From assembly GCA_017542475.1 (NCBI GenBank), contig JAFXXD010000021.1:21729-85728 (forward strand): a stretch of 64,000 nucleotides of DNA, in the 5' to 3' direction. The position numbers and the translations under genes are program-made. Shown one piece after another: positions 44,967 through 52,571 of this stretch (the first letter of the stretch is position 1; each line of letters opens with the position of its first letter). The stretch comes from Ruminococcus sp. (lineage in GTDB: Bacteria; Bacillota; Clostridia; Oscillospirales; Ruminococcaceae). Under the pieces are notes generated by a model that was given only the letters and a program-made list of their open reading frames with translations, was not told the origin of the DNA and made no database searches.

Positions 44967-46907
44967 TTATTCCTTTTCGAGCTGTGAAGCCGCGCCTATG
45001 AACAGCGGAACGTTGTTCTTGTCGAGTATCATATAAACGAAGGGCTTGTCGAGCTCAATGTGGACTTCCTTCTTCGGCACGGGCATAGCGCAGCCTGCCG
45101 CCATCATAACAGCAGTAACAGCTGCCGCCTTGACTCCCTTCTCCGTAACCTCAATGCGCGTCTTGTGGAGCACGTCGTCAATATAAAGTGCGGGAGCACC
45201 CTCTATGCTGAGGTCGTTTATCTTCGAGAAATCAGCCAGTCTCGGGTCAAACGCGCTCTCCATACCGAGCTTGGGGAGTATCTCCTTGAAAGAGGTATTG
45301 TAATTGTACTTGAACTTGGGTATCATTACGTACAGGTCAACTGTCTCGGGGTCCTCATACTCGGAAAGTCCCTCGAAGAGCTTCTCCGCATCGAGGTCAT
45401 TCACGTATTCAACGATGTCCTTCTCCTTGGGCATTATTCCCACGAACTTGTAGCTGCCGCCCGCGAACTCCTTGTCGAAGGCGTCGGCGTCACCGAGGTC
45501 GTAGTAGTGAGCCTCCTTGCTGTCCATTCTCTCGATCATATGCTCAACGCCGTCATAGTCGGTGAATGTACCTTCAGTCGTGGAATAATACGGTTCAGCC
45601 CAGTCATTCTCGAAATAGAGAGTATTGATGAGCATCATCATCATTATCTTCTCGTCGGTCGGGTCAAGGTCGCCCTTCTTTAAGAGAGAGGGTATCATAC
45701 CTCTTGTATTGTCGTTGACCCAGCTGTTCACGTCCTTGACAGTTGTGTCGTCAAACGGAGCCTTGTAAAGCTGAGCGTCGTAGTATTCGACATTCTTCTT
45801 GAGGAAGTCCTCATACACTGAGAACTTCGGGTCGTCCCTGAACCATATCGAATCCGCGAGGTAAAGCTTCTCGCGCTCGCCGTCGGGAAGATTGGCGATG
45901 TAGTACGCCATATAGTCGTTGATCTCGTCGATGGTCAGCCCGTTTCCGATGACCTTCTCCATTTCTTCAAGCGTCTTTCCGTCAGCACCGTTTGCTGTCA
46001 TGGCGAGAGCGGCAGAAATTGAGAGCGGTGAAAGAAGTGTATTCTTGTTCTCTGAGTTCTTCGGGTCGAAGCACTGTTTCAGGAGGCTTACGCCGAGGTT
46101 CATCTCCGCAGACGCAAACTTCTCGTCGGTCTCCTTGCCGTCGGAAAGGTCACCGCCTATTTCGGCGCACAGGTCAACGCTTCTGAGAGAGCCGACGGAA
46201 TTGAACTCCTTTGTTCTGCCGAGGACAAAGTCCATTACCTGTTCGAGGTCCTCCTCGTTGATTACGTCGTCCCTGTTGATGTCGGCATTGAGCTTCTGAG
46301 TCTCAGTAAGAGCCGCAGTATTCGTACCCGCGATCTCCATACGGTAGATAACGGTATCGAACGTGTCAACAACGCCGTCAGTGTTGATATCGCCGTAGAA
46401 CTGGATATAAGGCGAGCTGAGCGCCTCTATGCCGCAGAATTCGTAGGTGCACTCACGGTCAAACGGAAGATCGGTGCCGTTGTCGGAAGTACGGGAGCTC
46501 GTGTACTCATCAGCGGAGACAAGCGTCATATTGACTGTTATCTCGTTTCTTAAAAGCTTTGCAAAACCGCAGGTCTTAGCCCACATCGCCTCAGCTTCCT
46601 CTGTATCCATATACTTCTTCCCGTGCATAGGGTTGGAGATCTCAACACTGAACCTGTTATAATACGGTTCATACATATCGTAGACCTTCGGTGCAACAGT
46701 CATATCGATATATTCTTCACCGATCCGAACATCGACAATGTACACATCGAGGTCATACTCATACAGATCTCCCTCCTGACTTGAAGCCGCGGAAGCCGTA
46801 TACTTTTCAGCCGAGTTCAGCGAGCTGAATGTCCCGAACGTACCGAGAGCAAGAGAAAGGCTCAATACTCCCGCCGTAAGCTTTGACATCTTCTTAAACA
46901 TTCCCAT
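44967..46907 (-). CDS. secreted serpin (serine protease inhibitor) with internal dockerin
   Basis: The start MGMFKKMSKLTAG is chosen from AAGGAG 8 bases upstream. A signal peptide (about 1-40) and a unique region (about 45-165) precede a type-I dockerin at about 169-233 (DINTDGVVDTFD and DINRDDVINEED, the second loop slightly degenerate). A full serpin domain fills about 265-646. The reactive-loop hinge reads EKGVKAAAVTAVMM, and PFVYMILDKNNVPLFIG is the C-terminal serpin signature. Counting from the hinge puts the scissile bond near the AAGCAMP stretch, suggesting small or hydrophobic P1 and an elastase- or subtilisin-like target. Cellulosome-linked serpins with dockerins are known in some clostridia, and a role in protecting the enzyme complex from proteases is the accepted idea. 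Confidence 0.94.
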   Translation of the reverse strand: MGMFKKMSKLTAGVLSLSLALGTFGTFSSLNSAEKYTASAASSQEGDLYEYDLDVYIVDVRIGEEYIDMTVAPKVYDMYEPYYNRFSVEISNPMHGKKYMDTEEAEAMWAKTCGFAKLLRNEITVNMTLVSADEYTSSRTSDNGTDLPFDRECTYEFCGIEALSSPYIQFYGDINTDGVVDTFDTVIYRMEIAGTNTAALTETQKLNADINRDDVINEEDLEQVMDFVLGRTKEFNSVGSLRSVDLCAEIGGDLSDGKETDEKFASAEMNLGVSLLKQCFDPKNSENKNTLLSPLSISAALAMTANGADGKTLEEMEKVIGNGLTIDEINDYMAYYIANLPDGEREKLYLADSIWFRDDPKFSVYEDFLKKNVEYYDAQLYKAPFDDTTVKDVNSWVNDNTRGMIPSLLKKGDLDPTDEKIMMMMLINTLYFENDWAEPYYSTTEGTFTDYDGVEHMIERMDSKEAHYYDLGDADAFDKEFAGGSYKFVGIMPKEKDIVEYVNDLDAEKLFEGLSEYEDPETVDLYVMIPKFKYNYNTSFKEILPKLGMESAFDPRLADFSKINDLSIEGAPALYIDDVLHKTRIEVTEKGVKAAAVTAVMMAAGCAMPVPKKEVHIELDKPFVYMILDKNNVPLFIGAASQLEKE

Positions 46908-46954
46908 TGTTATCACTCCTTTTTTAAATATGTGTGATTCACCCCTGTAACCTT

Positions 46955-47009: not shown

Positions 47010-48212
47010 TTAACCGATTTCCTCTGCAAAGGGACTGTACAACAGACGGATGTCGTCAAAAAGCCCGCTTATCGCGTCAGATTGACAGAACCGCTCAACA
47101 GGTACAGCGCCGTCCTTGGTGAGGATACAGCCGTCCGTCTCGTTCAGATGTGTTACGAACAACGTCCGCTTAGCGGGGATATCGCACTCTGCAATGTCGT
47201 GGACTACTGCCGCTGTAAACTCCTCGGTGCTCCCGTGCGGAGCAAATCTCAGCGAGCCCTGCCACTCATTCCGCACATTGGTGCGGTCAGTGATACCGTA
47301 GGCGAGCGGGTCGAGCAGCCCCTCATACGGAAGCGGACCTGCTCCGTGGCGTGTCACATACGAACGCGTGACGTATATGACCTCAGTATCGGGGAGGCTC
47401 CCCTCTCCCGCTATTGAGCGGAGTATACGCGCAGGCTCATACAGTCCCGTGCGCGAGGTCGTGAGGTGCGGAGCATATTCGAGGTTGAACTCGTCGAGCA
47501 GAAGTCCCTGCGCCCCCTCGAAGATGACCTCGTCAAAGCCCGCGAGGAAGTCAGCCTCTCGGAGCTGAATTAAATCGGCATTGCGCGACATCTCCTCGGC
47601 GGCATTGCGCAATACAGACTCGCTGAACAGCATTTCACCGAGCTCACCTACCCTTCCGAGGTCAAGACCGAGCTCGGCGGTACGTTTCGGCGTATACTCA
47701 CGCGAGAGCTCCGAAAGCCTGTTATACAATGCCTCCGCGCTCCCGCCGACTACGTCCCCGAGACGGAGCGGGCACGTCTCCGAGCGCACCGCCGCCTCGT
47801 TTATACCCATTCCGCACGAGCCGTGCCGCCCGTCTCCGCGTGAGGCTTCGAGTATCATATTTATGAGCACGTCCCCGATATAGGTACATCGGCACAGTGG
47901 CGAAGCGTATATCGCGGGCACGCGTCCGCTGATACCGCGGAAGCCCTCAGTCTCCGACCCGAGCTTGAAAAGGTCGGGCATAAAGCTGTCCGCCCAGTAG
48001 GTGTCAAGCCCCCGAAAAGAAGCCGACGAGAGCTGTGAGAATACGAACCGAGCATCAGGCAGGTCAACAGTATGCCCCGCCTGAGCGCCGCCGTTGTGCC
48101 GCACGCAGACGGCAGACGATCCGCCGCGTACAGCCCCGAGCGCATAAGTATCGGTCGCAAGTCCCTTGCCCTCGTCGCCAAAGCTCTTGCCGATTATTAT
48201 TTTAGCCTGCAT
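47010..48212 (-). CDS. divergent adenylosuccinate-synthetase-like (PurA/PurZ superfamily) enzyme
   Basis: This protein of about 400 residues starts MQAKIIIGKSFGDEGKGLATD. The GDEGKG loop retains the catalytic Asp, NGGAQAGHTV retains the catalytic His, and EGAQGLLLDEFN and HGAGPLPYEG match PurA motifs. The usual TGRGIGPAY loop is replaced by GRHGSCGMGINEA. The GRxRR arginine motif of housekeeping PurA is replaced by TNVRNEWQGSLRFAP. It therefore probably ligates aspartate to a purine-like nucleotide, but not necessarily IMP. It overlaps the end of the second vWA gene by 11 bases and closes the operon. The ribosome site is weak, consistent with coupling; a TTG 24 bases upstream is an alternative start. 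Confidence 0.85.
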   Translation of the reverse strand: MQAKIIIGKSFGDEGKGLATDTYALGAVRGGSSAVCVRHNGGAQAGHTVDLPDARFVFSQLSSASFRGLDTYWADSFMPDLFKLGSETEGFRGISGRVPAIYASPLCRCTYIGDVLINMILEASRGDGRHGSCGMGINEAAVRSETCPLRLGDVVGGSAEALYNRLSELSREYTPKRTAELGLDLGRVGELGEMLFSESVLRNAAEEMSRNADLIQLREADFLAGFDEVIFEGAQGLLLDEFNLEYAPHLTTSRTGLYEPARILRSIAGEGSLPDTEVIYVTRSYVTRHGAGPLPYEGLLDPLAYGITDRTNVRNEWQGSLRFAPHGSTEEFTAAVVHDIAECDIPAKRTLFVTHLNETDGCILTKDGAVPVERFCQSDAISGLFDDIRLLYSPFAEEIG

Positions 48213-49113
48213 TATTCTTGGAAGTATCAAGCTCAATAGTGCACAGCGCTTTTGCTACGACATCTCTCGCCTCGCCGCTCCACTGAGAAACAGCCTGCTC
48301 CTTAGTCATTCCGCCGACCATCTGCATGAGCGATATCATCAGCTCCGCGAGGTAGTTTATCTTTTCCGAAGGGAGCACTGCATTGCGTCCGCTGATGAGC
48401 TTCTCCCACGTTTTGTACGCCATTTCAGTGCGAGAACCTGTAATAATGTGAAATATCTCATACTTACGGCTTGCCTCGGCGTAAAGCTCGACTGTCTTGC
48501 ATCCCTTCTCGGCCTTGTCGCTGAAAACACTGAGGATATCGCCCGCCGAGAGGATATCTTCCTGTCCCTCGTCGCAGACCTCATCGCCGATACAGAAAAT
48601 GAAGCCCTTCTTGCCGCGCTTCTCGTTGCAGTCGGTGGAGGTGTGCTTGAGCGCGAAATACCACACGAGCGAGTCGTAGCTGTATGGATTTCCGCCGCTG
48701 AGAGTGAATTCAAGCAGCTGCTCCACAACGCGGATATCAGCCTCAAACTGGGTTACCTGAAGTGCAGGACACTGCATGGACGAACTCGGCGATGTAAACG
48801 CCGCGCACATAATGTGCGGGTCGGTGACAGGACGCTTTTCGAGTATCATCGTAGCTGTCTTGTTCAGCGAGTTCTTCGCTATCTCCGCCGCAAGATATCC
48901 CATCGAGCCCGTGGAGTCAAAGCCGATGATTATAGGCGTGGATTCGGGCGAATCCTCGCTGTCGCGCGATTCGCGCATATTGATGAACTGCGGCAGATAC
49001 TTCTCGTTTACCTTGTTGCCGCTGAAAATATCATCAGCAGTAGATGATGCGCTGATGCCCCTGCTGTTTTTGAGCTTGTTCCAGTCAGCTGCACTGTAGC
49101 TTCCTCTTCCCAT
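48202..49113 (-). CDS. vWA-domain protein, second paralogue
   Basis: The 303-residue protein has no signal peptide. It begins MGRGSYSAADWNKLKNSRG and carries a vWA domain with MIDAS residues DSTGS at 66-70 (GFDSTGSMGYLAAEIA). Further metal-site candidates are the threonine in LQVTQFEADIRV and the Asp in FCIGDEVCDEG. It is clearly homologous to the gene 13 bases upstream, sharing NSLNK and SPESTP segments. Such proteins assemble metal-dependent complexes in the cytoplasm, as in Ter-type systems. Its partner may be the PurA-like or the zinc-ribbon protein of the same operon. Confidence 0.85.
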   Translation of the reverse strand: MGRGSYSAADWNKLKNSRGISASSTADDIFSGNKVNEKYLPQFINMRESRDSEDSPESTPIIIGFDSTGSMGYLAAEIAKNSLNKTATMILEKRPVTDPHIMCAAFTSPSSSMQCPALQVTQFEADIRVVEQLLEFTLSGGNPYSYDSLVWYFALKHTSTDCNEKRGKKGFIFCIGDEVCDEGQEDILSAGDILSVFSDKAEKGCKTVELYAEASRKYEIFHIITGSRTEMAYKTWEKLISGRNAVLPSEKINYLAELMISLMQMVGGMTKEQAVSQWSGEARDVVAKALCTIELDTSKNNAG

Positions 49114-49126
49114 TTGAATTACCTCC

Positions 49127-50032
49127 TCAGAATGAAATCGTATTATTATTGCTTATGTTTATGTATGCGAGCGACTTAGCCGCCGTCTCGGCTGCACGCT
49201 GCTCCACCGAAGCGAGTGCCTCGTTCGGGGTCCTGCCCTCGGCTACGGAAATGAGCGCGTATATAAGCTCCGACAGGCACGAGATGTCGCGCTTGTTTAT
49301 CGCTGCTACCCTCCCCCTCATAAGCGAGCACCAGTCCGCGAAAATGCGCTCGTCCTCGGGAGCGCCCTTATCAATGCAGATGTGAAAGACATTGTACATC
49401 TTCTCGGCTTTAGCAATGAGCTCCTCGTCCGAGAGGTCGTACTCGACTGTGTCGCCAAACACGCGGCTTATCTCACCGCGGGTCAGCGTCTTGTGGCAGC
49501 AGTCGTCGCCGATAGTTATGAGGATACCTTTTTTGTGACGCTTCTCAAAGCAGTCGGTACGGGTACGGTTCGCCGCAAAGTACCAAGCGAGGTTATAGGA
49601 TTCGCCGCCGTTACCTCCGCCTCCGCCTTCGAGACAGAGACTCGTCAGCTGCTTGATTATGCGTATGTCGCTCTCAAACTGCGTCACCTGCAAGGGCTTT
49701 TTGTCGGACTTGCAGTCGCCTATCGCACAGCACATCACCTGCGGACACAGTATCGGCTTGTTTTCGTAGATGTACATTATCGCCTTGTTCAGCGAATTCA
49801 GCGCAAGCTCCTCGGCAAGATAGCCCATTGAAGCTGTGACGTCGAAGCCGATGATAACGGGCGTGGATTCGGGCGAATCCTCGTTGTCGCGAGCCTCACG
49901 AACAACTCTGCTGAGGTTGGTCGGTATCTCTGCGGAACTATCCGACTTGAATATCTTCTCAGCTCTGCGCTCGCTGCCGAAGGAGCTTCTCAGCTTCGTC
50001 CAGTCGCTTGCGGTATAGCTTCCTCGTCCCAT
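49127..50032 (-). CDS. vWA-domain protein, first paralogue
   Basis: This 301-residue protein begins MGRGSYTASDWTKLRSSFG and has MIDAS residues DVTAS at 64-68 in GFDVTASMGYLAEELA, with LQVTQFESDIRI and ITIGDDCCHKT later. A glycine-rich insertion (LEGGGGGNGGES) lies in the middle where the paralogue has SGGNPYS. The conserved N-terminal MGRGSY segment before the vWA fold is shared by the pair and may be a docking peptide. It starts 3 bases after the zinc-ribbon gene stop. Confidence 0.85.
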   Translation of the reverse strand: MGRGSYTASDWTKLRSSFGSERRAEKIFKSDSSAEIPTNLSRVVREARDNEDSPESTPVIIGFDVTASMGYLAEELALNSLNKAIMYIYENKPILCPQVMCCAIGDCKSDKKPLQVTQFESDIRIIKQLTSLCLEGGGGGNGGESYNLAWYFAANRTRTDCFEKRHKKGILITIGDDCCHKTLTRGEISRVFGDTVEYDLSDEELIAKAEKMYNVFHICIDKGAPEDERIFADWCSLMRGRVAAINKRDISCLSELIYALISVAEGRTPNEALASVEQRAAETAAKSLAYINISNNNTISF

Positions 50033-50035
50033 AGA

Positions 50036-51001
50036 TCACCTCTTTCCGTATATCTGCTCGTCATCGGTATCCATAGTCACGAACCTGCGCTCGCCGTAGG
50101 ACTGTATGAGCACCTCGTCCCAATGGGCAAAATCATCGTAGGCGTTGCTCGCAGGAGCACTTCTGATGAAGTCAGCAAAGGGCTTCAGCAAATCGCCTGT
50201 CTCCCTGACATCACTTGCGCTCTCGAATCCGAGCACCTGCGCCGCGATACTGCGCAGAGAAACAAGGTTGTGGCGTGTCGTATATGTCACACCGCTGACG
50301 GTAGTGTTATTCGGCACGACCTTCCACCAGCTTCCGTAAAGGCTGGCAGTATGGTCGTAGGGGTCGATGTACACATCGTCTATGTCAAAATTTGTATGTA
50401 CAAGGCTGTTGTATTCGAGCACACAGCAGAGATTTTCCAGTCGGCTGACTATCCACGCCGTCTGTCTGCCGTCGAGCCTGCCGAAAAGTCTGAGAGGGTA
50501 CTCGTCCTCGCTTTTTTTCACCGCAAGCAGAGCAGAGCCGTCTGTGAGTCCGAAGCCGCCGCTTATCGTGGGAAAGAAGTCGGAAAGGGTCTTTGTATCG
50601 GCTGACGGGTAATCCAGCGAGGATACAGCCTTGCGGAATTTATCGGTAAAGGCTGCGTTCTGCGGGTCAAAGCGGAAAATGATGTTCTGCCTTGCGGTAT
50701 AGACGGTCGCGTCCCTGTCCCTGAAAACGTTCAGGCTCTTTATATCTATCTTTCTGCCGTCGGTGCACTCAAACACCTCCTCAGAGGCGCTGTTCCACAG
50801 CTCATCTGCGCGTACACGGCGCTCCTGACCTTCCTTGGAGAGTTTGAAAAATCCTCTCATACGCTCGTAGAAATCGCGGTAGTAATCGGTATCGCTGTGG
50901 TCGAGCACATACCGCGAGCGGCAGTACGGACAATGTGCTGTCGTGCCCGACGGGTCAATGACCATAGAAGCGCCGCAGCTCTTACACTCCAGAAATTTCA
51001 T
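50036..51001 (-). CDS. zinc-ribbon protein with degenerate protein-kinase-like domain
   Basis: The ATG at 51001 (MKFLECKSCGASM) follows GGAGGT. A zinc ribbon of CX2C-X14-CX2C form uses Cys6, 9, 24 and 27. The remaining 280 residues look like a reduced kinase fold: LVHTNFDIDDVYIDPYDHTASLYGSWW resembles the HxD catalytic loop and DFG region, but the catalytic Asp is replaced (H-T-N) and DFG is absent, so it is predicted to be a pseudokinase. It is the first gene of the four-gene operon. The kinase call is weak and rests on this one motif. Confidence 0.7.
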   Translation of the reverse strand: MKFLECKSCGASMVIDPSGTTAHCPYCRSRYVLDHSDTDYYRDFYERMRGFFKLSKEGQERRVRADELWNSASEEVFECTDGRKIDIKSLNVFRDRDATVYTARQNIIFRFDPQNAAFTDKFRKAVSSLDYPSADTKTLSDFFPTISGGFGLTDGSALLAVKKSEDEYPLRLFGRLDGRQTAWIVSRLENLCCVLEYNSLVHTNFDIDDVYIDPYDHTASLYGSWWKVVPNNTTVSGVTYTTRHNLVSLRSIAAQVLGFESASDVRETGDLLKPFADFIRSAPASNAYDDFAHWDEVLIQSYGERRFVTMDTDDEQIYGKR

Positions 51002-51034
51002 ATAACACCTCCGAATATGCGTTGTTATGGATTT

Positions 51035-51063
51035 ATTATATCTTTTTTCACCGAAAAAGTCAA
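51035..51063 (-). promoter_or_regulatory. promoter of the vWA/PurA-like operon
   Basis: On the minus strand TTGACT (51058-51063), 17 bp, TATAAT (51035-51040), about 35 bases before the start at 51001. Confidence 0.85.
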
Positions 51064-51119: not shown

Positions 51120-51152
51120 ATATTTGTAATGATAACATCAGGGAGTGATACA

Positions 51153-52571
51153 ATGATATATAAAAAGATTATTTCTGCGGCAGTATCCTTGCTCGCCGCT
51201 GCTGCCGCCTCTACCTGTATGCAGGCACTCTGCGCAGTAGATATGGACTATACCTCCGACGGAGCCGTTGACACCTTCGACCTTATCGCGGCGCGAAAGT
51301 CCGCCTCAAAGGAGGAACTGCAGCGCCTTAACGACTTCATTCTCGGCAAGCCTGTCACGAGCTCGGGCTACGCGCTGATATGGAGCGATGAATTCAACGG
51401 CGAGTCGCTTGATACCGACAAATGGTCGTTCGAGCTCGGCAACTGGAAGACTGACTCGAAGGGCAACTACATCACCAACGGCTGGGGCAACAACGAGCAG
51501 GAATTCTACACCGATAAAAACACCGCCGTCAGCGACGGCGTCCTCACTATAGCCGCACGAAGAGAAGACTACACAGACCCTGTCCAAGGCAGCTACGGGT
51601 ACACCTCCGCGAGGCTGAGCTCACAGTACAAGTTCTCGACCTGCGGCGGAAGAATAGAGGTTCGCGCACGCTGTGACAGCGGTAAGTCCCTGTGGCCCGC
51701 GATATGGATGCTCCCCGAGGACAGCGTCTATGGCGGCTGGGCGGCTTCGGGCGAAATTGACATAATGGAGGGCTGGGGCAGCACTCCCGAGAAGATATGC
51801 GGAACGATCCACTTCGGAGACATGTGGCCGAACAACACCTATCTCACCGCCGACTACAATTTCTCAGGCGGCGACTCCACCGAGAACTGGCACACCTACG
51901 CAGTCGAATGGGACAGCAACGAAATGCGCTGGTTCGTGGACGACGACCTCTACAGCACACAGACGGAATGGTACTCCGTCAACCGAGCTTACCCAGCGCC
52001 GTTCGACCAGAACTTCTACCTGCTGCTCAATCTTGCGGTCGGCGGACACTTCGACGGAATCGACGGAATTTATGCTGACCCAGACACGTTCGCAGACGGC
52101 GAGAAGCACTTCGACATCGACTACGTCCGCGTGTACAAGAAAAACGGCGACAACTTCGCTCCCACGCCCCAGACCTCGGCGGCTCTGTCACTCTACCGCG
52201 AAGGTGCGGAAGCAGGGCTCACCAACAAGGACGGCTGCTCCGTCGCGCACATCGTAACCGTCGGAGAGAAGCCCTACAGCGTTATGGGGCTACTTGAGGG
52301 TCAGCACGTTTCCGCTGACGAGGAGCACACGCTAAGCTTCACGGCTCAGTCAACCGCAGAACGCCCGATAACAGTCACAGTCGAGGACGCGCAGTACGAG
52401 CGATACCTTGACGAGACTATCATTGTAGGGACAGAACCCACCAAATACACATTCAAGGTCTCGTTTGGTACGGACATGGACGTGGACATCAAATTCCTGA
52501 TGGGGAAGGTCAGCGACGATGTACCGAGCACAGAGCACGATATCACGATGTCGGAGATAAGCTGGAAATAG
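51153..52571 (+). CDS. secreted GH16 beta-glucanase (laminarinase/lichenase type) with half dockerin
   Basis: The start MIYKKIISAAVS follows GGGAG; a signal peptide covers about residues 1-28. A shortened dockerin at about 30-67 shows one calcium loop (YTSDGAVDTFDLIAARK) and then a helix (LNDFILGKPV) without a second loop. The GH16 domain spans about 72-338 with the catalytic GEIDIMEGWG (Glu201, Asp203, Glu206). A C-terminal carbohydrate-binding-like beta-sandwich follows. Such enzymes cut beta-1,3 or mixed-linkage beta-glucans. Whether the half dockerin still binds a cohesin is unclear. Confidence 0.93.
   Translation: MIYKKIISAAVSLLAAAAASTCMQALCAVDMDYTSDGAVDTFDLIAARKSASKEELQRLNDFILGKPVTSSGYALIWSDEFNGESLDTDKWSFELGNWKTDSKGNYITNGWGNNEQEFYTDKNTAVSDGVLTIAARREDYTDPVQGSYGYTSARLSSQYKFSTCGGRIEVRARCDSGKSLWPAIWMLPEDSVYGGWAASGEIDIMEGWGSTPEKICGTIHFGDMWPNNTYLTADYNFSGGDSTENWHTYAVEWDSNEMRWFVDDDLYSTQTEWYSVNRAYPAPFDQNFYLLLNLAVGGHFDGIDGIYADPDTFADGEKHFDIDYVRVYKKNGDNFAPTPQTSAALSLYREGAEAGLTNKDGCSVAHIVTVGEKPYSVMGLLEGQHVSADEEHTLSFTAQSTAERPITVTVEDAQYERYLDETIIVGTEPTKYTFKVSFGTDMDVDIKFLMGKVSDDVPSTEHDITMSEISWK

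Follow-up and report, generated by a model that had tools for sequence, protein, structure and literature searches.

A divergent PurA-like enzyme encoded with vWA-like and pseudokinase proteins in a Ruminococcus operon, with relatives in phages and on plasmids

The 64,000-nucleotide stretch of DNA from a rumen-type Ruminococcus sp. analysed here (the window, contig positions 21,729-85,728, within which all operon coordinates are counted) carries four tightly spaced open reading frames (ORFs) on the minus strand, between positions 47010 and 51001, downstream of one promoter-like site (Table 1). They encode a zinc-ribbon pseudokinase (P0001), two vWA-like proteins (A, P0002 and B, P0003) and a relative of the adenylosuccinate synthetase PurA (P0004). 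The reading that we tentatively prefer is that of a mobile, phage-born module in which a PurA-fold ligase with a new amine donor would act in a complex with vWA and pseudokinase proteins. The operon would then be a chromosomal copy of a three-component module, most likely phage-derived, consisting of the pseudokinase, a vWA-like protein with a Met-Gly N-terminus and the PurA-like enzyme; the product is probably an unusual nucleotide.

The PurA-like enzyme and its partners

P0004 scores 84 bits against the Pfam family PF00709, for which the gathering cut-off is 27, and falls below the cut-offs of two PurA equivalog models, with 47.1 against 395.6 bits for TIGR00184 and 70.3 against 402 bits for NF002223. 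The NCBIfam model for PurZ, NF038379, gives 16.5 bits where the cut-off is 300. The GDEGKG and GHT motifs are kept; GMGINEA and NEWQGSLRFAP replace TGRGIGPAY and GRxRR. An earlier note on this DNA, made from the letters alone, had claimed these motifs together with the MIDAS-like and zinc-ribbon motifs described below, and all are present as it stated. It had also cast P0004 as an altered PurA relative belonging to a separate system, an idea at odds with P0004 being the only PurA of the genome. A canonical PurA is encoded on a different contig and scores 604 bits, where P0004 scores 83; P0004 is therefore a second, divergent enzyme and the idea survives, with the residue comparison that follows bearing out the alteration.

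Fifty-five bacterial and 126 viral members, 181 in all, were aligned to E. coli PurA; the residue numbering (UniProt) and the functional roles of the columns are those we take to hold for the E. coli enzyme. At the catalytic Asp14 every filled cell, 54 bacterial and 124 viral (178/178 together), has Asp; the catalytic His42 is His in 54/54 bacterial and 125/126 viral cells, and Gln225 is found in all 181 members. Lys17 and Thr240 of the phosphate site are kept almost without exception, in a family with members as low as 27% identical to P0004. None of the 181 members has a residue in columns Gly303 to Arg306, which make up the GRRR stretch of the aspartate loop; a single Arg is kept after them, and Val274 is replaced by His throughout (181/181). 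Other changes are Asn39 to Gln (54/54 bacterial, 122/126 viral), Thr130 to Cys (55/55, 114/126), Pro136 to Glu (55/55, 105/126) and Lys332 to His (55/55, 96/126), and Arg132 is mostly Met, Val or Leu. Asp334 is Asn in 53/55 bacterial and 55/126 viral members, with Asp in 70 of the latter. The alignment thus displays an intact PurA catalytic set, a lost Arg-rich aspartate loop, and predicted base, ribose-side and GTP (guanosine triphosphate) contacts that have changed. According to the available excerpt of PMC8342488, aspartate and the 2′-oxygen of inosine monophosphate are both contacted by Arg303 of E. coli PurA (column 304 in our alignment), and a Val conserved in PurZ and PurA alike is tied to the 2′ side of the ribose; by our own mapping that Val is column 274.

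The two vWA-like proteins share 44% sequence identity and both begin MGRGSY. The canonical motif of the metal-ion-dependent adhesion site (MIDAS) is DxSxS...T...D; here the MIDAS-like form is DxTxSMG, as DVTASMG in protein A and DSTGSMG in protein B. In the family alignment the metal-site residues Asp64, Ser68 and Asp176 are invariant (30/30), and Thr occupies the middle position in at least 90%. At the N-terminus, with 84 bacterial and 115 viral sequences examined, residue 2 is Gly in 82/82 and 112/112 filled cells, residue 4 is Gly in 82/82 and 97/113, and residue 6 is aromatic in 82/82 and 104/113. The exceptions are the first vWA copy of locus L018, with no usual start codon directly before the Gly, and the phage protein of L076, which begins MSSKGSW. 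On plasmids, all nine proteins whose start is visible begin MG, L233 being the locus where the start could not be seen. Residue 2 of both partner proteins, treated in the same manner, varies freely.

The zinc ribbon of P0001 is Cys6-x2-Cys9-x14-Cys24-x2-Cys27; across 45 aligned relatives Cys24 and Cys27 are invariant and Cys6 and Cys9 occur in at least 90%. P0001 itself has no Pfam kinase match. The kinase fold is assigned to the family by way of the Mycobacterium phage Tonenili member, which matches Pfam Pkinase with 35.6 bits (cut-off 31.7) and is the only one of 33 phage members to do so. The link is made by hhalign, in which the clostridial kinase part and that of the 33 phage proteins align over 249 columns with a probability of 100% and an E value of 7e-63, and the two are homologous on this comparison; as long as the clostridial profile did not include the Tonenili kinase, it found that protein weakly (E 3e-5). 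By motif the kinase is dead. Asp is present at the HRD position in 7/50 bacterial and 5/33 viral proteins and at the DFG position in 2/50 and 1/33, and P0001 has Asn and Ser, respectively, at these positions. In phages a J-domain precedes the kinase part, the HPD motif being present in 29/33 and a Pfam DnaJ match (E up to 0.01) in 27/33; L067 is the sole phage noted with the zinc-ribbon form. We note that the pseudokinase family alignment has an invariant His column (50/50 bacterial and 33/33 viral members; His217 in P0001) in the segment that separates the catalytic-loop position from the DFG position, although the kinase aspartates are mostly gone.

Distribution in Clostridia, phages and plasmids

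When one genome per species was scanned with P0004 peptides, 55 loci were found, 56 with the window. This set was seeded from the window protein and is not a census of bacteria; all 55 loci have clostridial or unassigned labels except L031, on a contig labelled Myxococcales. The PurA-like gene is present in 56/56 by construction, having been the query, with vWA-like genes in 55 and the zinc-ribbon pseudokinase in 50. The order pseudokinase, one to three vWA copies, PurA-like is found in 50/56 loci. The proposal of the earlier note that the genes form a system depended on their keeping company in related genomes, and these counts uphold it. Five of the loci that lack the pseudokinase (L005, L017, L042, L053 and L055) have a contig end next to the module; in L031 there is room for the gene, yet none is present. 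Clustering of neighbouring ORFs revealed no fourth conserved family, the next best occurring in 13 loci at scattered positions.

The module is rare and its spread patchy. At an E value of 1e-10 vWA matches occur in 4/197 genomes of the family and in 1/398 genomes drawn from the phylum, the window's own being counted in each, which leaves 3/196 and 0/397 besides it. Relatives L005 to L009 have flank genes in common with the window, for example the serpin-dockerin and trp genes. Such sharing with the closest Ruminococcus relatives, together with ratios of nonsynonymous to synonymous substitution (dN/dS) of 0.07 to 0.23, indicates a kept chromosomal operon. The ratios apply to all four genes, compared with four relatives (five for the PurA-like gene), and place all four under strong constraint. 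A prophage remnant is not supported, as the clostridial loci have only the module genes in common. Nor is there support for a defence island, with no PADLOC match (2023 version, E up to 1) to the four proteins and no PADLOC family common in the flanks. The flanks of 25 out of the 38 eligible loci supplied 131 proteins. At 1e-10 these matched 41 PADLOC families, each of them in four proteins at most; of the 146 Pfam families recorded among them, the 25 that recur most are chiefly families of metabolism or transport.

A tblastn search of 50,697 phage records found PurA-like matches in 216, some of which may be PurZ or PurA, and vWA-like matches in 207. Mycobacterium phages dominate (189 and 188 records, respectively), followed by Rhizobium and Vibrio phages, and in Tonenili (Bixzunavirus) the order is kinase, vWA-like, PurA-like. 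IMG/VR was scanned once per protein family; of the 212 relatives in one scan and the 110 in the other, the 80 best were taken each time. Both genes are present in 79/80 loci retrieved with the vWA-like protein and in 76/80 retrieved with the enzyme; of the five loci with one gene only, L091 begins at a contig end and L102 is located on a short contig. A vWA gene lies within 3 kb upstream, on the same strand, of 153/162 viral PurA-like genes, duplicate contigs included. Among 128 distinct viral loci 69 encode a Met-rich protein, 33 the pseudokinase, none both and 26 neither. The Met-rich gene stands directly before the vWA gene in 62/67 loci of a first clustering, the pseudokinase gene in 19/28 placeable cases. 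Three Met-rich proteins were scanned; none reaches the cut-off of any Pfam family, and PHROG gives no match for them at an E value of 0.01 or below. The PHROG families phrog_1211 (enzyme), phrog_2971 (vWA-like) and phrog_3043 (mycobacteriophage kinase) match the three components. A protein that by eye resembles SPFH/Band-7, for example L208:10455-11378, occurs in 17/128 viral loci at scattered positions.

In a quick tree of 97 rows (35/55 bacterial and 59/126 viral sequences and three outgroups, plasmid sequences being left out) the clostridial enzymes and that of phage L067 constitute one group inside a much deeper phage radiation, with a value of 99 in the Shimodaira-Hasegawa-like approximate likelihood ratio test (SH-aLRT). 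This nesting suggests a single capture of the clostridial module from phage, in a tree made without bootstrap, with 39/94 inner branches weak, the outgroup on long branches, eleven rows of odd composition and a bacterial sample seeded from the window.

Plasmid records were matched by P0002 (21) and P0004 (20), in Rhodococcus (11), Agrobacterium/Allorhizobium (4), Acetobacter, Rhizobium, Variovorax, Methylorubrum and others; a match on a Haladaptatus plasmid may be an ordinary PurA. Ten plasmid loci (L226-L235, four of them from Rhodococcus) were examined. The vWA-like gene is present in ten, the pseudokinase and PurA-like genes in nine each, and two loci are incomplete. A NUDIX-type protein adjoins the module in 8/10. 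Its gene is divergent in Allorhizobium, Rhodovulum, Rhizobium and Acetobacter, in the last of these spread over two frames, and lies downstream of the module in the four Rhodococcus loci; the Variovorax and Methylorubrum loci have no such neighbour. Four of these proteins seeded the hidden Markov model (HMM) used to find them and so match by construction, Pfam providing an outside check: NrtR_WHD is over cut-off in the proteobacterial three of four scanned, and the Rhodococcus protein matches NUDIX only. The NUDIX box is degenerate and was missed by a strict regular expression. The accessible part of PMC4666351 reports that adenosine diphosphate ribose (ADP-ribose) suppresses DNA binding of two NrtR proteins, that another responds to nicotinamide adenine dinucleotide (NAD) and that one branch of the family responds to arabinose. 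As separate observations, on the Allorhizobium plasmid pAtS4e AAA ATPase, DUF5682 and DUF4132 genes lie directly downstream of the module (L227:8408-12807), and an IS3 transposase is found near the Rhodovulum plasmid locus L230.

Some phage copies also have neighbours that point to NAD. Fifty phage records were searched, three of them added by hand because the gene had been seen nearby, and a NAPRTase-family gene lies within 8 kb of the module in 7/16 records that have one (2.1 expected, P 0.002). Close to the module, four NUDIX proteins of phages match a domain pair of nucleotidyltransferase and NUDIX, an arrangement as in NAD salvage.

Proposed function and alternatives

What might the enzyme do, and why should its partners travel with it? 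A ligase with a new amine donor is the simplest reading, because the PurA reaction centre is intact and the aspartate site removed. The enzyme would activate a 6-oxo group by phosphoryl transfer, either on a purine nucleotide or on the nucleotide part of a larger molecule, and the activated nucleotide would then be joined to an amine other than free aspartate. The reaction may take place within a complex with the vWA-like protein, the metal site and Met-Gly N-terminus of which would contact the enzyme. Since it is nearly inseparable from the enzyme, this protein is the leading candidate for the role of controller, of donor or of target. The earlier note had proposed that the operon makes a modified purine nucleotide and that the vWA proteins serve as a metal-dependent assembly or sensor, both of which stay conjectural. 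The most plausible part for the dead kinase, which carries a J-domain or a zinc ribbon, is that of an adaptor, a non-catalytic platform that would bring substrate or chaperone, with the J-domain as the adaptor part in phages and plasmids and the zinc ribbon in Clostridia. With less assurance, the plasmid NrtR-type and the phage NAD-salvage neighbours suggest that the product or the trigger may be part of NAD/ADP-ribose metabolism.

A bolder version has the N-terminal Gly amine of the vWA-like protein taking the place of aspartate, such that this N-terminus would be tagged with a nucleotide or an NAD-like dinucleotide. The Gly-x-Gly-Ser-aromatic end, exposed after removal of Met, would enter the widened pocket and attack the 6-phosphoryl purine. 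Tagging of this kind would account for the lost aspartate loop, the near-invariant Gly2 and Gly4 and the rarity with which the genes are separated; we regard it as very unlikely, though if true it would constitute a new type of protein modification, made by phages and retained by bacteria.

Several observations weigh against the ligase in its complex. The pockets are read from an alignment in which the loop gap could be placed differently. The term vWA is applied at the level of motifs: 30 family members give no match to the Pfam VWA model at E up to 0.5, and a family profile search of the PDB found no vWA structure. The parts can be separated. The Rhodovulum plasmid stretch L230:5322-7029 has the pseudokinase and vWA-like genes with no PurA-like gene in it, phage locus L140 lacks a vWA gene despite having space for one, the two genes are separated by about 30 kb on the phage contig to which both L116 and L153 belong, and some copies of the module do without the pseudokinase. 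A gene of the PurB-like (adenylosuccinate-lyase) family was not found in 28/28 phage records, possibly fragments, so either the host supplies the lyase, as the consulted portion of PMC8342488 gives for PurZ phages, or the product is something other than a succinyl adduct. No clostridial locus matches the NUDIX HMM, therefore the link to NAD may not hold for this genome, and in phages that link is weak once the three hand-added records are removed (4/13, 1.3 expected, P 0.03).

The same NAD evidence lends itself to another explanation, overlapping with the one just weighed, that the operon is a stress or phage-conflict system sensing NAD depletion: rising ADP-ribose would cause NrtR to release the operon, and the product or the complex would restore NAD or halt growth. 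The NrtR-type plasmid neighbours, the reported effect of ADP-ribose on NrtR, the NAPRTase-family genes near some phage copies and the patchy spread are all in keeping with such a system, which we consider possible but somewhat doubtful, given that PADLOC recognises none of the four proteins and the flanks are unlike a defence island. That phages carry the module so widely also argues against a purely anti-phage role. Might the PurA-like protein instead be a pseudo-enzyme, a nucleotide-binding scaffold for the vWA-like protein and pseudokinase? Its partner is itself dead by motif and the substrate loops have been rebuilt, but the near invariance of the catalytic Asp, Lys, His and Gln over 181 members of such divergence makes this rather unlikely.

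A pathway like that of PurZ, supplying a modified deoxypurine such as 2-aminoadenine for DNA, draws on the shared superfamily, on the frequency of the gene in large phages (the 216 matched records) and on the PHROG name of the enzyme family, '2-aminooxy adenylosuccinate synthetase'. DNA-base modification by this route is nonetheless unlikely, on the PurZ model score, the catalytic Asp and the lack of a PurB-like gene in the 28 phage records; chromosomal and plasmid copies, moreover, have no phage DNA to modify. In PurZ, including that of SH-Ab 15497, the catalytic Asp is exchanged for Ser, which the available sections of PMC12884076 give for all 147 phage PurZ members, whereas Asp occupies every filled cell here, and the kinship with PurZ raised by the earlier note is thus not borne out. 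A plain second adenylosuccinate synthetase would fit the PF00709 match above cut-off; with a canonical PurA already in the genome, the purA equivalog models failing by far and the aspartate loop lost, it is highly improbable.

Comparison with known systems sets the module apart. PurA and the module enzyme share GDEGKG, GHT, the catalytic Asp, Lys, His and Gln and the phosphate-site Thr240, but the latter has a loop four columns shorter, changed pocket columns and nearly always a vWA-like gene nearby. PurZ and PurZ0 of Z-DNA phages are likewise phage-carried PurA paralogues with a rebuilt pocket; as far as the portions of the sources at hand describe them, they keep an aspartate-contacting loop and have Ser for the catalytic Asp, and no vWA or pseudokinase partner is named (PMC12884076, PMC8342488). 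The former counts 481 phage PurA homologues and, in the same portion, does not treat the non-PurZ ones further. NrtR regulons resemble most of the plasmid copies examined in the NUDIX-winged helix protein alongside, but the module has no NAD-biosynthesis gene inside it and the regulation is putative.

TerY-P triads comprise a vWA protein, PP2C and a kinase with a zinc ribbon. The module is similar in having a vWA-like protein and a kinase-like zinc-ribbon protein, and differs in that there is no fourth conserved family in Clostridia, the kinase is dead by motif and a PurA-like enzyme is present instead. PP2C and TerB/C/D are absent from the 25 most frequent flank Pfam families, no gene-by-gene Ter search having been made, and within that limit the relationship to Ter systems suggested by the earlier note finds no support. 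The same note had not recognised the operon as a described system, and our search of the open-licence literature agrees, in that no account of the three parts together was found, although a description elsewhere is possible. PHROG catalogues the three families apart, with no link listed between them, and the accessible text of PMC10892097 on Vi01-like phages names a VWA protein (gp185) and, in a different list, an adenylosuccinate synthase.

An intact PurA-fold catalytic centre lacking the amine-donor site points to chemistry beyond adenylosuccinate synthesis. The module spans Mycobacterium, Rhizobium and Vibrio phages, a human-gut phage, megaplasmids of two phyla and clostridial chromosomes, so its reaction must serve many hosts. 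Phage genes labelled adenylosuccinate synthetase (216 matched records) gain a testable context, and the plasmid copies in laboratory strains of Rhodococcus and Methylorubrum make the module open to bench work.

Operon layout and neighbouring genes

Four packed minus-strand genes behind one promoter had been described in the earlier note, and the ORFs and the promoter-like match agree with that description. The promoter-like site sits 33 bases before the first ATG of the operon; by consensus match alone the region has seven such sites against a shuffle mean of 2.9. Going downstream, the genes are separated by 3 and 13 bases, and the start of the PurA-like gene overlaps the end of the vWA-B gene by 11 bases.

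Table 1. Features of the operon, its flanks and the phage Met-rich proteins (window coordinates unless prefixed by a locus)
Feature	Position	Strand	Basis
Promoter-like site TTGACT-17-TATAAT (putative)	51035..51063	-	consensus scan, 11/12 positions
Zinc-ribbon pseudokinase, 321 aa, P0001	50036..51001	-	conserved Cys; hhalign to phage proteins
vWA-like protein A, 301 aa, P0002	49127..50032	-	phrog_2971 E 4e-39; family alignment; Gly2 counts
vWA-like protein B, 303 aa, P0003	48202..49113	-	paralogue of A; phrog_2971 E 3e-25
PurA-like enzyme, 400 aa, P0004	47010..48212	-	PF00709 E 1.2e-23; phrog_1211 E 1.7e-36
Met-rich proteins of phages	L197:6063-6698, L061:5237-5950, L063:5483-6091		before vWA gene
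Dockerin-like repeats, then serpin-like part	44967-46916	-	Serpin and Dockerin_1 matches in flanks of relatives
Secreted glycoside-hydrolase-like gene	51129-52571	+	Glyco_hydro_16 match in flanks of relatives

The dockerin- and serpin-like gene adjoins the operon, and the Pfam families Serpin and Dockerin_1 are matched by flank genes of relatives. The glycoside-hydrolase-like gene is divergent from the operon and has the upstream region in common with it; Glyco_hydro_16 is among the flank matches in the loci of relatives.

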